Of a stretch of DNA of 57,267 nt, positions 23,635-57,267 are shown one piece after another; within the stretch, counting starts at the first letter, position 1, and each line of letters starts with the position of its first letter. This stretch comes from Rhodovulum sp. PH10 (GTDB taxonomy: Bacteria > Pseudomonadota > Alphaproteobacteria > Rhizobiales > Xanthobacteraceae): assembly GCF_000293785.1 (NCBI RefSeq), contig NZ_AKZI01000058.1:1-57267 (forward strand), read 5' to 3'. The notes beneath the pieces are model-generated. The model searched no databases, was not told the origin of the DNA, and saw only the letters and a program-made list of their open reading frames with translations. A program made the translations under genes and the position numbers.

Positions 23635-23667
23635 GCGTCCACGGCGAATCGGCACCACCTCGATCCG

Positions 23668-23772
23668 CCTCACCCTGCGGAGCCCGCGCAGCGGGCGTCT
23701 CGAAGGGCGAGGCGGCCACCGGGGCGGCTCCATGGTTCGAGACGGCTGCTTCGCAGCCTCCTCACCATGAGG
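23668..23772. repeat. Double-hairpin palindromic repeat (TCGAGAC/TCCTCA type)
   Basis: Two hairpin halves face each other between hupL and hupC. Half one (23668-23712) pairs CCTCACCC with GGGCGAGG around an internal loop (TGCGGA / GTCTCGA) and a GCCCGC-GCA-GCGGGC hairpin. Half two (23731-23772) pairs CATGGT with ACCATG around TCGAGAC / TCCTC and a GGCTGC-TTC-GCAGCC hairpin. The same build occurs inside the helicase gene at 55331-55441. It could act as a processing or stability element separating abundant hupSL message from hupC onward; this is inference. Confidence 0.72.
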
Positions 23773-23826
23773 CCGGGAGAGTGAGGCGGCCGGAACAGAG
23801 CCGCACGAAGGAACAGGGGAAACGCC

Positions 23827-53024: not shown

Positions 53025-53684
53025 TCACCACCCGCGGTTCTGGTACGGCGAGGGCTGGTAGGGCGCGTAATAGGGCGCAGGGACCGCATAGGTCCCGTAC
53101 TGCGGCTGATAGCGATACTGCACGTAGGGCCGGTAGCCATAGGTGGACTGGCCGTAGGCCCGGTAGGGCGAAACCGGTCGGGCCGCATAGACGGGCTCGT
53201 CGTCGTCGTCGTCCTCGTCGCGGGCGACCACGGGCGGCCGGGCCGCCGGCTTCCTGCCGGTGACGACGATCTTCGTGTCGCCCGCGCCGTGCTCCTTCAC
53301 CAGCGAGAACAGCGTCGCGGCATTGTTCGGATGCAGCCGCACGCAGCCGTGCGAGGCCGGGCCGCCGAGCTTGGAGATCTCGTTCGAGCCGTGGATCGCG
53401 TACCCGCCGTGGAAGAAGATCGAGTACGGCATCGGCGAGTTGTAATACTTCTTCGAGAAATACGTGCGGTGCAGCCGGGTCGGGCTGTAGGTGCCGTTCG
53501 GCGTGTCGTAGCCGGCGCGTCCGGTCGAGATCGGCCAGCGATAGCGGGTGACCCCGTCCTCGATCACCGACAGGCGCTGGGTCGTCTTGTCGACCCGCAC
53601 CAGCAGGGCCGCATCGGCGGCGAGGGGGGCGAGCAGCATGCCGGCGGCGAGCGCCGGACCGAACAGCAGGCGGATGGGGGTCAT
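53025..53684 (-). CDS. L,D-transpeptidase (YkuD/ErfK family)
   Basis: Periplasmic cysteine enzyme of 219 residues that forms 3-3 peptidoglycan cross-links or attaches proteins to the wall. A signal peptide (about 1-25) precedes the YkuD domain (about 27-145) with HGSNE (His98) and the catalytic SHGCVRL (Cys114). After the domain comes an acidic run (RDEDDDDDEP, about 157-166) and then a tail of about 50 residues rich in Tyr, Pro and Gln (for example RPYVQYRYQPQYGTYAVP). That tail is unusual and may bind wall or envelope partners. Confidence 0.94.
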   Translation of the reverse strand: MTPIRLLFGPALAAGMLLAPLAADAALLVRVDKTTQRLSVIEDGVTRYRWPISTGRAGYDTPNGTYSPTRLHRTYFSKKYYNSPMPYSIFFHGGYAIHGSNEISKLGGPASHGCVRLHPNNAATLFSLVKEHGAGDTKIVVTGRKPAARPPVVARDEDDDDDEPVYAARPVSPYRAYGQSTYGYRPYVQYRYQPQYGTYAVPAPYYAPYQPSPYQNRGW

Positions 53685-53878
53685 CGGAAGACTCGATACA
53701 CTTCGGGTGAACGGCGACAGCGAAAGACTGAAACGCGCGCGGCGCCGAATGGTTCCGCGACCACCGGTGCCGCACCGAGCGCAAAGGGGGATTTGCGGGC
53801 GCGCCGCAAATCCCCCGGACTTCCGACGGGTACCTCCGAAAGGCGTCCTCCGAAAGACGCGCCGGTGGCCCGAAACCG

Positions 53879-54151
53879 TCAGTCGAGCGAGTTCAGCCAG
53901 GAATCGACCTGCCGATCGGCCTCCTCCTTGGTGACGCCGTAGCGCTCCTGGATACGCCCGACCAGCTCCTGGCGGCGGCCGGCGGCGACCGTCAGATCGT
54001 CGTTGGTCAGCTTGCCCCACTGCTGCTGGGCTTTTCCGGAGAACTGCTTCCAGTTGCCGGAGATCTGGTCCCAGTTGAGGGCGAGCGACGGACCGGTGGA
54101 CAGCGCCAGAAGCGGCGCGGCCACCGCGAGAAGAAGCAACGTTTTCCGCAT
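53879..54151 (-). CDS. CsbD-family protein with signal peptide
   Basis: The 90-residue protein starts with a clear export signal (MRKTLLLLAVAAPLLALSTG, cleavage near SLA-LNWD). A CsbD-like domain follows: WDQISGNWKQFSGKAQQQWG, then LTNDDLTVAAGRRQELVGRI, then QERYGVTKEEADRQVDSW. CsbD proteins are small stress-associated helical proteins of unknown mechanism, usually cytoplasmic; an exported version is less common. Single gene, divergent from the helicase. Confidence 0.88.
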   Translation of the reverse strand: MRKTLLLLAVAAPLLALSTGPSLALNWDQISGNWKQFSGKAQQQWGKLTNDDLTVAAGRRQELVGRIQERYGVTKEEADRQVDSWLNSLD

Positions 54152-54493
54152 CTGAAAATTCCCTTGTTGTGGGTACGACCGTAATGGTCGGGCAACGCAC
54201 CTGGCGCGAGCACGGTTCCATCGGCTGCCACCGCGAGTTCCCCGGCGGTGTCCGAGGCGGCCACCCGCGAAGGGGATCGTGATCCGCCACGGCGCGTGCG
54301 GCCCTCCCCAGCGGCGGCCCACGGTGCCATCTTTAGGACGAACGATTCGCCGAGACCGGTTTTTTGCCGGCCGTCCGGAGCGTCCGACCCGGCGGGTCCG
54401 CCCCGCCCGGCGGCCCGGGTGGCCCTGCCGGCCGGCGAGAACCAACGGGCCCGCAACGGGCCGGCCGGCGCCTGCCGGCGAACCGGAACCAGA
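54152..54493. other. Divergent intergenic region, no gene recognised
   Basis: 342 bp between the leftward CsbD-like gene and the rightward helicase. The frame of the helicase stays open upstream, but that extension is Pro/Arg/Ala-rich and unlike homologues, so it is treated as noncoding. An AT-richer patch (GAAAATTCCCTTGTTG at 54154-54169) adjoins the CsbD-like start. No clear promoter boxes or dyads were found. Confidence 0.4.
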
Positions 54494-57175
54494 ATGGCCG
54501 AACCGCACAAGAATCGCTTCGAGCCCGCTCCGCCCGCCCCGCGGCCGGGCGGCATCGCGGCCCGCGCGAGCGGCGCCACCCGCGCGCCCTATCTCGAAGG
54601 TCTCAATCCCGAGCAGCGCGAGGCGGTCGAGACGCTGGACGGCGCCGTGCTGGTGCTGGCCGGCGCCGGCACCGGAAAGACCCGCGTGCTCACCACCCGC
54701 ATCGCCCACATTCTCCGGCTCGGCCGGGCGCGGGCGGGCGAGATCCTCGCCGTCACCTTCACCAACAAGGCCGCGCGCGAGATGAAGACGCGCATCGGCG
54801 GCATGGTCGGCGAGGTGGTGGAGGGCATGCCGTGGCTCGGCACCTTCCACTCGATCGGCGCAAAGATTTTGCGGCGGCACGCCGAGCTGGTCGGGCTGAA
54901 GCCCGACTTCACCATTCTCGACGTCGACGACCAGATCAGGCTGTTGAAGCAGCTTCTGGCAGCCGAGAACATCGACGAGAAGCGCTGGCCCGCCCGCGTG
55001 CTCGCCACCCAGATCGACCACTGGAAGAACCGCGGCCTGTCGCCCGACCAGGTGTCGGCCGGCGAGGCCGGCGCCTTCGCCAACGGCCGCGGCAAGGATT
55101 TTTACACGGCCTATCAGGCGCGGCTGAAGACGCTGAACGCCGCCGACTTCGGCGACCTTCTGCTCGAGACGATCCGGCTGTTCCGCGAGCACCCCGAGGT
55201 GTTGGCGCAGTACCAGAACCGCTTCAAGTTCATCCTGGTCGACGAGTATCAGGACACCAATGTCGCGCAGTATCTCTGGCTGCGGCTGCTGGGACAGCGT
55301 CCACGGGACACGACCGGGGGGGGCGGCCTCGTCCTTCGAGACGCGGCGCTCCGCGCCGCTCCTCAGGATGAGGCCGGAAGCATGCCGGTGCCAGGCCCTC
55401 GTCCTGAGGAGCCCGGGCGCAGCCCGGGCGTCTCGAAGGACGTGGCCACGAAAAACGCTGCGCCGCAGAAAAACATCTGCTGCGTCGGCGACGACGACCA
55501 GTCGATCTATGGCTGGCGCGGTGCCGAGGTCGACAACATCCTGCGCTTCGACCACGATTTCCCCGGCGCCAAGGTGATCCGCCTCGAGCGCAACTACCGC
55601 TCCACCGCGCACATTCTCGCCGCCGCCTCGCACCTGATCGCCCACAACGAGGGACGGCTCGGAAAAACGCTGCGCTCGGAGGGCGAGGCCGGCGAGAAGG
55701 TGGTGGTCTCCTCCGCCTGGGACTCCGAGGAGGAGGCCCGCGCGATCGGCGAGGAGATCGAGCGCCTGCAGCGCCAGGGCCACCGGCTGAACGAGATCGC
55801 CATCCTGGTGCGCGCCTCGTTCCAGATGCGCGAGATCGAGGACCGCTTCGTCACGCTCGGCCTGCCGTATCGGGTGATCGGCGGCCCGCGCTTCTACGAG
55901 CGCGCCGAAATCCGCGACGCGATGGCCTATCTGCGCCTCGTCAACCAGCCGGCCGACGATCTCGCCTTCGAGCGCATCGTCAACGTGCCGAAGCGCGGGC
56001 TGGGCGACGCCGCGCTGCAGTGTTTGCACGATTTCGCCCGGGCGCAGGGCGTGCCGCTGCTCGAGGCGGCGCACCGGATCGTCGCCACGGAGACCTTGAA
56101 GCCAAAACCGCGCGGGGCGCTGCGCGACCTCGCCGCCGCCTTCGATCGCTGGCGCGAGCAGCGCGACGTGCTGCCGCACACGGAGCTCGCCGAGATCGTC
56201 CTCGACGAGTCCGGCTACACCGAGATGTGGCAGAAGGACCGCTCCGCCGACGCCGCCGGCCGGCTCGAGAATTTGAAGGAGCTGGTCCGCTCGATGGAGG
56301 AGTTCGAGAACCTCCAAGGCTTCCTCGAGCACGTCGCCCTGGTGATGGACACCGATCGCGGCGAGGAGCAGGACGCCGCCTCCATCATGACGCTGCACGC
56401 CGCCAAGGGGCTCGAGTTCGACACCGTGTTTCTGCCCGGCTGGGAGGAGGGCTTGCTGCCGCACCAGCGCTCGCTCGACGAGAACGGCCGTGCCGGGCTC
56501 GAGGAGGAGCGCCGCCTCGCCCATGTCGGCCTGACGCGAGCGCGCAAGAACGCCCGCATCTCGTTCGTCTCCAATCGGCGCATCCACGGCTCGTGGACGT
56601 CCAGCCTACCGTCGCGCTTCCTCGACGAGCTACCCGAGGAGGACGTCGAGGTGCTCGAAGGGCAGGGCGCGTTCGCTGGCTATGGCGGCTATTCCAACGC
56701 CTACGGGTCGCGCTTCGACACCACCGCCGCGTTCGGCTCCGGCTACACGACGCCCGGCTGGCGCCGCGCCCAGCAGGGCCGCGGTGCCGGCGCAGGCGCT
56801 GGCGCCGCACGCGACGATTTTCCGCAGGAGTATTTCAATCAGGATCCGGCCGGTCGCTTCGAGAATGGGTCCGGTTCCGGCACGGCATCCTCTCCGACGA
56901 CCCGCGGGAGAGACGCGACCGGCCCCCAAAACCCCGGCGCCGGCCGCAACGGCTTCGGCGGGGCTGCGAGCCCGCGGCGGGCGCCGCTCACCATCGAGGG
57001 CGAGCTGGTCGCCCGCTCGTCCGGCGCGCCCTCGGCCTTTTCGCGTGGCGACCGCGTGTTTCACCAAAAATTCGGCAACGGCACGGTGCGCGCGGTGGAC
57101 GGCAACAAGCTGACCATCCAGTTCGACCGCGCCGGCGAGAAGCGGGTGGTGGACAGTTTTCTGACCAAGGTCTGA
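54494..57175 (+). CDS. uvrD: UvrD/PcrA-family DNA helicase with an in-frame repeat-encoded insertion
   Basis: SF1A 3'-5' helicase of 893 residues for nucleotide-excision and mismatch repair and replication-fork upkeep. Motifs in order: Q motif LNPEQREAV, I AGAGTGKT (about 57-64), Ia AVTFTNKAAREM, II DEYQDTN (about 250), III VGDDDQSIYGWRGA (about 331), IV IRLERNYRS, V TLHAAKGLEFDTVFLPG and VI VGLTRARKNARISF. Between motifs II and III about 50 extra residues are inserted, of which residues 280-316 come from a 111-bp palindromic repeat. After a Gly/Ala/Asn-rich linker (about 735-830) the C-terminal Tudor-like domain (VFHQKFGNGTVRAVDGNKLT) is present, so the gene looks functional. The start MAEPHKNRFEP is preceded by a long open but non-homologous extension. 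Confidence 0.95.
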   Translation: MAEPHKNRFEPAPPAPRPGGIAARASGATRAPYLEGLNPEQREAVETLDGAVLVLAGAGTGKTRVLTTRIAHILRLGRARAGEILAVTFTNKAAREMKTRIGGMVGEVVEGMPWLGTFHSIGAKILRRHAELVGLKPDFTILDVDDQIRLLKQLLAAENIDEKRWPARVLATQIDHWKNRGLSPDQVSAGEAGAFANGRGKDFYTAYQARLKTLNAADFGDLLLETIRLFREHPEVLAQYQNRFKFILVDEYQDTNVAQYLWLRLLGQRPRDTTGGGGLVLRDAALRAAPQDEAGSMPVPGPRPEEPGRSPGVSKDVATKNAAPQKNICCVGDDDQSIYGWRGAEVDNILRFDHDFPGAKVIRLERNYRSTAHILAAASHLIAHNEGRLGKTLRSEGEAGEKVVVSSAWDSEEEARAIGEEIERLQRQGHRLNEIAILVRASFQMREIEDRFVTLGLPYRVIGGPRFYERAEIRDAMAYLRLVNQPADDLAFERIVNVPKRGLGDAALQCLHDFARAQGVPLLEAAHRIVATETLKPKPRGALRDLAAAFDRWREQRDVLPHTELAEIVLDESGYTEMWQKDRSADAAGRLENLKELVRSMEEFENLQGFLEHVALVMDTDRGEEQDAASIMTLHAAKGLEFDTVFLPGWEEGLLPHQRSLDENGRAGLEEERRLAHVGLTRARKNARISFVSNRRIHGSWTSSLPSRFLDELPEEDVEVLEGQGAFAGYGGYSNAYGSRFDTTAAFGSGYTTPGWRRAQQGRGAGAGAGAARDDFPQEYFNQDPAGRFENGSGSGTASSPTTRGRDATGPQNPGAGRNGFGGAASPRRAPLTIEGELVARSSGAPSAFSRGDRVFHQKFGNGTVRAVDGNKLTIQFDRAGEKRVVDSFLTKV
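55331..55441. repeat. Double-hairpin repeat inside the helicase gene
   Basis: Perfect 14-bp outer arms GTCCTTCGAGACGC (55331-55344) and GCGTCTCGAAGGAC (55428-55441) enclose GCGGCGC-TCC-GCGCCGC (55343-55359) and GCCCGGGC-GCA-GCCCGGGC (55411-55429), with CTCCTCAGGATGAGG facing CCTCGTCCTGAGGAG. The length, 111 bp, is an exact multiple of three and the helicase frame runs through it, encoding 37 residues. It shares the TCGAGAC / TCCTCA internal-loop design with the copy at 23668-23772. Confidence 0.85.
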
Positions 57176-57223: not shown

Positions 57224-57267
57224 ACCCTCTCCCGTGGGGAGAGGGTCGGCGAGCGCAGCTCGCCGGG
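57224..57267. repeat. Hairpin-pair repeat, cut by the window edge
   Basis: ACCCTCTCCC-GTG-GGGAGAGGGT (57224-57246, perfect 10-bp arms) is directly followed by CGGCGAGC-GCA-GCTCGCCG (57247-57265). It lies 48 bp after the helicase stop and could serve as its transcription end. The TACCCTCTCCC...GGGAGAGGGTCGGCGAGC pattern is another familiar alphaproteobacterial intergenic repeat. The right end is outside the window. Confidence 0.7.

Follow-up and report, generated by a model that had tools for sequence, protein, structure and literature searches.

Why should the gene for a core DNA repair helicase carry a palindromic DNA repeat inside its reading frame, and is this an isolated accident? The question is raised by the uvrD/pcrA gene of Rhodovulum sp. 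PH10 (Alphaproteobacteria, Xanthobacteraceae), located at 54494–57175 on the forward strand of the 57,267-nucleotide stretch of contig NZ_AKZI01000058.1 (assembly GCF_000293785.1) that was analysed here and is called the window. Comparison with relatives showed that the UvrD loop separating helicase motifs II and III in Bradyrhizobium-like bacteria has repeatedly taken up dissimilar repeat families in frame, and that even close relatives can differ in the family they carry. Repeats of several types, each dispersed in its genome, occupied this common site in frame, were exchanged between relatives and, where counted, kept a fixed codon phase.

The gene could be read without interruption from its ATG (54494) to its stop codon (57173–57175), encoding 893 amino acids, and its own genome contained a single match to uvrD/pcrA helicase at E ≤ 1e-100. 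The Pfam domains PF00580 and PF13361 matched on either side of the loop, and these flanking superfamily 1A (SF1A) helicase domains identify the product as a UvrD/PcrA helicase, although the score for the pcrA model TIGR01073 was 757 bits, below the equivalog cut-off of 911. The upstream anchor was the segment LVDEYQDTN (55235–55261, forward strand, residues 248–256) and the downstream anchor was GDDDQSIYGWRG (55487–55522, forward strand, residues 332–343), which we take to be motif II and motif III, respectively. The columns around both motifs were invariant in an alignment of 37 rows. The expanded loop occupied 55298–55468 of the forward strand (residues 269–325), between the conserved segments LVDEYQDTN and NICCVGDDDQSIYGWRG, where the relatives with a 29-residue segment have only two residues. 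From LVDEYQDTN to NICCV the segment measured 84 amino acids in the window compared to 29 in the short-loop relatives, an addition of 55 residues. Escherichia coli UvrD has about four residues at this place (positions 237 and 242 of solved chains flank the gap).

The loop contained a palindromic element of a family designated R at 55330–55442 of the forward strand. Perfect 14-bp inverted ends (CGTCCTTCGAGACG at 55330–55343 and CGTCTCGAAGGACG at 55429–55442, by eye), with CGTC outside them, enclosed two hairpin units placed head to head in an element of 113 bp. An outer inverted repeat of 20 nt (95%) joined 55325–55344 to 55428–55447, its arms spanning 123 bp or 41 codons, and a nested inner repeat of 16 nt (94%) joined 55358–55373 to 55397–55412. 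Both halves were on the forward strand, the left one extending from the outer to the inner left arm (55325–55373, including the reading LVLRDAALRAAPQDE) and the right one from the inner to the outer right arm (55397–55447, including the reading RPEEPGRSPGVSKDV). The folding z of the element was -7.9 as DNA and -8.3 as RNA, and in either test none of 200 shuffles folded as well. As an imperfect palindrome able to form hairpins, the element has the properties of a repetitive extragenic palindromic (REP) sequence or palindromic dispersed repeat. An earlier note, made from the sequence alone, had described an in-frame double-hairpin palindrome with perfect 14-bp ends between motifs II and III, and the nested repeats and the open frame confirmed this. 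Its length of 111 bp and 37 codons was not reproduced, as the ends are fuzzy and give 113 or 123 bp; the figure of 37 codons depends on which ends are chosen, and the solid measure is the net addition of 55 residues.

To place the loop among relatives, 119 genomes of the family were searched, of which 114 had a match, and the genus of the window was searched in six genomes. The loop could be read in 107 of the 114, and one further congener brought the set to 108 UvrDs, the window gene included; there was no reading at the loop in G006, G038, G040, G070, G079, G101 and G102. Row L037 was dropped as the same gene as L035, and L124 because the pattern missed its motif variant (its loop was short by eye). 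L169, which has a poly-C/N stretch (G038), was used for its core peptide only, and rows L309–L338 and L369–L388, obtained with a short-loop query, were left out of the proportions. Named relatives were the best 80 of 588 from the genome collection. Certain family rows had exactly the loop of Rhodoplanes piscinae, Tardiphaga sp., a metagenome-assembled genome (MAG) of Xanthobacteraceae or a MAG without assignment, so that the family searched is probably Xanthobacteraceae as GTDB defines it.

A long segment (over 45 amino acids) was present in 72 of the 108 UvrDs and a short one (37 or less) in the other 36, 33 of which had exactly 29; among the 108, short loops were absent from the genus of the window. 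Within the long clade, short loops occurred in genera g12, g30 and g35, and later rows added loops of 33 and 35 amino acids in g34 and of 47 in g25. The two g34 loops (L370 in G255 and L371 in G259, 35 and 33 amino acids, respectively) were nearly empty; other g34 species carried V, P or R repeats, as defined below, which makes these two loops good references for an empty site. The claim that homologues lack the inserted segment held for the 36 short family UvrDs and failed for nearer relatives, whose loops are of similar length. It had also been proposed that a segment of the same length without the palindrome in relatives would speak against insertion. Here the outcome was split, as the loops of the nearer relatives were filled with a different palindrome.

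By peptide pattern, 55 of the 72 long loops showed one or more of four repeat types, with 23 P, 13 R, 10 V, 5 S, 2 V+P, 1 V+S and 1 R+V, and 17 were classed as other. Typical readings were LVLRDA..APQDE..PHPEE..VSKGEA for R, VIPGR..PES..DSG..PGMT for V, SLPGLTRQSI..RRPGDD for S, and SPRxRGEV..PHPDPLP or PSPLxGEG for P. Within a type, blastn matched 78 of 78 pairs for R, 10 of 10 for S, 34 of 45 for V and 109 of 253 for P, compared to 3 of 889 cross-type pairs. The four types are thus mutually dissimilar as DNA, and P is heterogeneous and may be more than one family. A first single-linkage clustering had merged loops of all four types into a group of 78; this grouping was rejected on the 3 of 889 cross-type matches among pure rows, since the types had been joined mainly through mixed loops. 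In the genus of the window, the window itself carried R, four congeners carried P and one carried V+P. In L171 (G042) the two motifs were separated by 255 amino acids, in which several units followed one another and an S-type unit occurred as two near-copies.

Long loops were also seen in other families. The insert in the same loop of Ensifer sp. BR816 (L138) had matches at 264 places in 95 rhizobial plasmid records; seven of the eight hits shown had no listed gene beneath them, the eighth record was without annotation, and the gene table was incomplete. The Tianweitania loop (L094) matched six plasmid records at 24 places. These two loops and that of Mesorhizobium L096 resembled some P loops, and the Mesorhizobium- and Aurantimonas-type UvrDs L085, L087, L092 and L093 had long loops linked to one another as DNA. 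The plasmid collection gave no match for family R, family S or the Mesorhizobium-type loops L085 and L093.

Family R was dispersed in its own genome, a draft of 272 contigs that is 99.16% complete. With 40 of 177 first-look candidates scored, blastn gave at least 85 matches at about 41 places by manual count, the uvrD copy and both orientations included, which is the dispersal that an inserted repeat had been expected to show. A search with the peptide gave 71 matches up to E = 10, several of them at contig starts. The other types were dispersed likewise, with 42 matches for S in G028, 75 for P in G005 and 44 for V in G073 (self and both orientations included).

Copies inside other genes were surveyed in four genomes, in which 96 distinct copies were considered after 16 duplicates and 6 contig edges had been set aside. 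In 70 of these a flank was not clearly coding, and the 26 clear ones comprised four uvrD copies, one spurious 17-bp match and 21 copies without a continuing open frame. The spurious one, in L260 (G005), had been scored as open and was rejected as a chance match. No second copy in a gene frame was seen among the 96 (70 with flanks not clearly coding), and none among another 29 peptide matches from the own genome, of which 7 lay at contig edges and 16 were unclear. In-gene copies outside uvrD may exist; the sampled copies showed none. The DNA flanking 20 named loci (108,075 bases, up to about 3 kb per side) contained six repeat clusters, and a recognised repeat was present in 18 of the 20 loops of these loci, the exceptions being L078 and L082. 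This corresponds to an enrichment of the loop over flanking DNA of approximately 100-fold, a rough figure with a loop of about 150–200 bp and a query set drawn from uvrD loops.

Turnover was followed on a UvrD tree built without the loop, and changes were compared to those in 1000 shuffles. The long or short state changed 4 times compared to a shuffle mean of 30.4. For the 51 rows of pure type, the repeat type changed 24 times compared to a shuffle mean of 24.5 (454 of 1000 as low). When the tree was built more carefully, from 77 rows (50 pure, the short row L036 excluded), 24 changes were counted compared to 24.4 in shuffles, and 24–26 on 200 bootstrap trees. Eight of 12 pure-type sister pairs differed in type. 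Close UvrDs could carry different repeats: L053 (V) and L055 (P) were at a distance of 0.030 and L161 (S) and L059 (V) at 0.046. Bradyrhizobium sp. Ai1a-2 (L073, V) and B. elkanii WSM2783 (L083, S) were about 0.02 apart, with nearly identical flanks and the middle exchanged between V and S.

The genus of G028 grouped with named Bradyrhizobium, and 59 of its 60 genomes had a uvrD match. With a widened typing pattern (L447 was read by eye), its 58 loops in frame were 28 V, 15 P, 7 V+P, 7 S and 1 other; the seven mixed loops contained a V end followed by P. In one further locus, L434 of the one-contig genome G409, uvrD was frameshifted inside a P insert.

The repeats were read in a particular frame. 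All 14 R inserts and 25 of the 29 P inserts had stops in frame +2, only 2 of the R and 10 of the P inserts had any in frame +1, and in V and S stops alone rule out most other frames. The used frame had a net charge of -1.6 to -4 per 100 residues and 0 to 0.2 Cys+Trp, compared to +12 to +27 and 2.3 to 5.0, respectively, in the unused frames; the inserts were rich in P, S, A and G. With duplicate rows counted, all 13 R and all 11 V matches had the CGTC tag at the third codon position, and all 12 S matches had it at the second. Typing by peptide pattern could bias this result, as a type is named after the peptide of one frame. In a check at the DNA level, 408 of 482 same-strand loop–loop matches were in the same frame (the 74 others were not split by gaps). 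The simplest reading of the fixed frame is a filter acting on the peptide.

An AlphaFold2 model from 37 sequences gave a predicted local distance difference test score (pLDDT) under 50 over model residues 241–289 (protein residues 273–321); the helix and the strand on its two sides had block means near 80. This low confidence fits disorder, and the loop is probably disordered. At the nucleic acid level, 43 of the 55 loops with a repeat type had a folding z below -3, as did none of the 16 long loops without a type and a single one of 39 control stretches of uvrD. Hairpins are lost during repeat decay, which counts against a required RNA structure.

Short peptides were conserved in the middle of some loops. 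SLEDTWD or SIEDTWD was kept in L053, L055, L169 (by eye), L374 and L376 (codons not printed), with V repeats around it in L053 and L374 and P repeats in L055, L169 and L376. DLADTF occurred in L058, L078, L079 and L187, and PFD[IV]HPDD in L060, L063 and L173. These core peptides are possible binding motifs, for which mimicry of beta-clamp or SSB-tail peptides was considered and set aside, and selection seems to act on part of the loop in some lineages.

Repeats were also observed elsewhere in the window. A second R-type unit at 23667–23720 was followed, within 23667–23778, by another palindrome (CATGGTTCGAGACG...CACCATGAGG, by eye). Right after the uvrD stop, two short perfect hairpins at 57224–57265 looked by eye like family P, the type found in the uvrD loop of four of the five congeners. 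The neighbours of uvrD at 53025–54170, on the minus strand, encode a YkuD L,D-transpeptidase and a small CsbD-like protein.

Tolerance together with a frame filter is the best-supported explanation of these findings, and we consider it likely that a permissive loop has been refilled repeatedly by dispersed palindromic repeats and filtered for harmless frames. In the window, a head-to-head pair of REP-like units of family R would have inserted in frame into what is otherwise a short link from the helix after motif II to the strand of motif III. To judge from the tree, this link would have turned early, on one side of the family, into a long and probably disordered loop, which would then have been the landing site where repeats of at least four types inserted, replaced one another, nested, were partly deleted and decayed. 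Selection on the protein would act as the filter, keeping a frame that is stop-free, almost free of Cys and Trp and neutral to slightly acidic. The insert peptide would be made and would form a disordered, harmless floppy spacer in a helicase that still works; how the repeats move is a step that we infer. Several observations weigh against this explanation. Pure tolerance by itself leaves unexplained the excess filling of the loop over its surroundings and the lack of other gene-frame copies in the sample (where most flanks were unclear), and no recognised repeat was present in 17 of the 72 long loops. Over all 72 long rows, mixes and other loops included, there were 36 changes compared to 42.1 in shuffles (7 of 1000 as low), and in the Bradyrhizobium-type genus 21 compared to a shuffle mean of 26.0 (4 of 1000 as low, 57 rows), where type turnover is slower than random. 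One of the 59 Bradyrhizobium-type uvrD genes is frameshifted in its insert (G409; a real event or a sequencing error), frame counts are non-independent where an insert was inherited, and the AlphaFold2 model was poor overall (mean pLDDT 70.4, predicted template modelling score 0.42). The codons of the acidic-aromatic core peptides change almost only synonymously, which hints at function, and the change of family on both sides of the loop around a fixed middle peptide is not accounted for.

A tentative alternative, which we hold to be unlikely, is that the long loop itself is functional in partner binding or as a spacer, with selection keeping its length and REPs as the building material. The deep stability of the long and short states, with their four changes, would agree with it, as would core peptides that differ mostly synonymously while the surrounding repeats switch between V and P, and the 36-row clade holding G028, in which no segment of the 108-row set is below 48 amino acids. 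The core peptides are missing from most repeat-bearing loops, however, that of the window included; the short loops inside the long clade show no hard floor of length, and a ratchet of insertion over deletion could likewise keep loops long. As a general claim the 48-residue floor was rejected on the loops of 33, 35 and 47 amino acids, and it held for one clade of the 108-row set. Because it failed, this alternative was graded slightly lower, as was a related and unlikely one, that the motif II–III loop is a long-lived safe harbour to which dissimilar REPs are drawn, or in which they are favoured since a floppy loop alters the helicase profitably. If that were true, repeat invasion would be a regular source of new protein sequence at a fixed site of a core repair enzyme, including in some lineages a short conserved putative binding peptide in mid-loop. 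The enrichment of approximately 100-fold could instead reflect targeting at the DNA level, where hairpins or strand exposure in replication or transcription attract mobile palindromes and the protein is irrelevant. This is doubtful: the V end followed by P in seven Bradyrhizobium-type loops, the units in a row in L171 and the exchange of V for S at one place would fit it, yet the site is common to four mutually dissimilar types, and the Y1 REP transposase (PF01797) was absent from G000, G005 and G073 and found once in G028. A REP-associated tyrosine transposase (RAYT) was rejected as the mover of the repeats on its absence from three of these four genomes searched, the own genome being a draft. 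Control at the RNA level, with the amount of UvrD adjusted by an mRNA hairpin that would slow translation or direct decay, is very improbable, since the strong folding of typed loops is given by recent palindromes alone and none of the 16 long loops without recognised repeats folds so strongly. An assembly artefact, or a chance palindrome in a normal variable loop, has a negligible probability. The genome of the window is a draft, G038 has its poly-C/N stretch at the loop, and 4 of 114 genomes (G040, G070, G101 and G102) have a contig start less than 70 bases away from the loop match; the same pattern is nevertheless present in one-contig genomes (e.g., G028, G042 and G097) and in many separate assemblies, and the inserts match dispersed families, which refutes this account of the general pattern.

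Tolerance with a frame filter therefore has to be set beside the known cases of repeats in genes. Palindromic elements in protein genes of Rickettsia (RPE) were reportedly described by Ogata et al. in 2000, and rhizobia contain dispersed RIME mosaic elements, double palindromes of about 100 bp whose description resembles the present repeats and offers a lead. At the level of sequence, an in-frame element in a conserved open reading frame, without counterpart in the short-loop relatives, behaves like an RPE. The parallel with RPE drawn in the earlier note was apt: in the portions of a review at hand, these are palindromic repeats in frame in protein genes, and a tested guanylate kinase was active (PMC2229807). 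The likeness drawn here is one of behaviour, and the present case differs in that one loop of one gene is filled by dissimilar families in succession. The note had spoken of a domesticated repeat; the in-frame insertion of a dispersed repeat stands, and domestication is unproven. For Bradyrhizobium, the printed consensus of Br-REP2 resembles the right half of family V (by eye, against L059); Br-REP2 copies are reported as dispersed in intergenic regions, and "uvrD" is absent from the main text of that paper as available (Hahn et al. 2016, PMC5082802).

The closest precedent is the description of REPs of the CGTC and GTAG superfamilies inside genes (Di Nocera, De Gregorio, and Rocco 2013, PMC3733652). 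In the parts of its text at hand, many in-gene REPs lie in replication and repair genes, which was noted as a puzzle, and a UvrD/REP helicase is listed among the REP-tagged repair proteins, so that the earlier statement of no described case in a core repair helicase was wrong for the general kind. CGTC-tagged REPs are characterised there by a terminal CGTC, head-to-head dimers, an alphaproteobacterial host, a stem of 8–9 bp, AT at the first and second positions, a loop of 4–5 bp and a CCA-like tail. Family R shares the head-to-head palindromic dimers, the CGTC ends and the alphaproteobacterial hosts with these REPs, and in the window element CGTC lies outside both ends (by eye), which places it with the CGTC superfamily on these features. 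Family R may nevertheless fall outside that superfamily because its two halves mainly pair with each other. The same portions of text give neither species nor site for the UvrD REP, report one same-site case (recB of two Xanthomonas), and do not contain recurrence at one site across a family, exchange of families or a fixed frame, all three of which were seen here (PMC3733652). No report of a recurrent UvrD loop refilled by repeats was found in the open-licence papers searched. At one site in one bacterial family, at least two dozen changes of repeat type and close pairs with different repeats make three questions testable: how REPs move without a detected transposase, why repair genes hold REPs, and whether repeats become working protein segments. 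As a natural archive, the UvrD loop may also help to trace past invasions by repeats. A REP inside a repair gene is of a known kind, whereas a single loop repeatedly refilled by dissimilar families is new.

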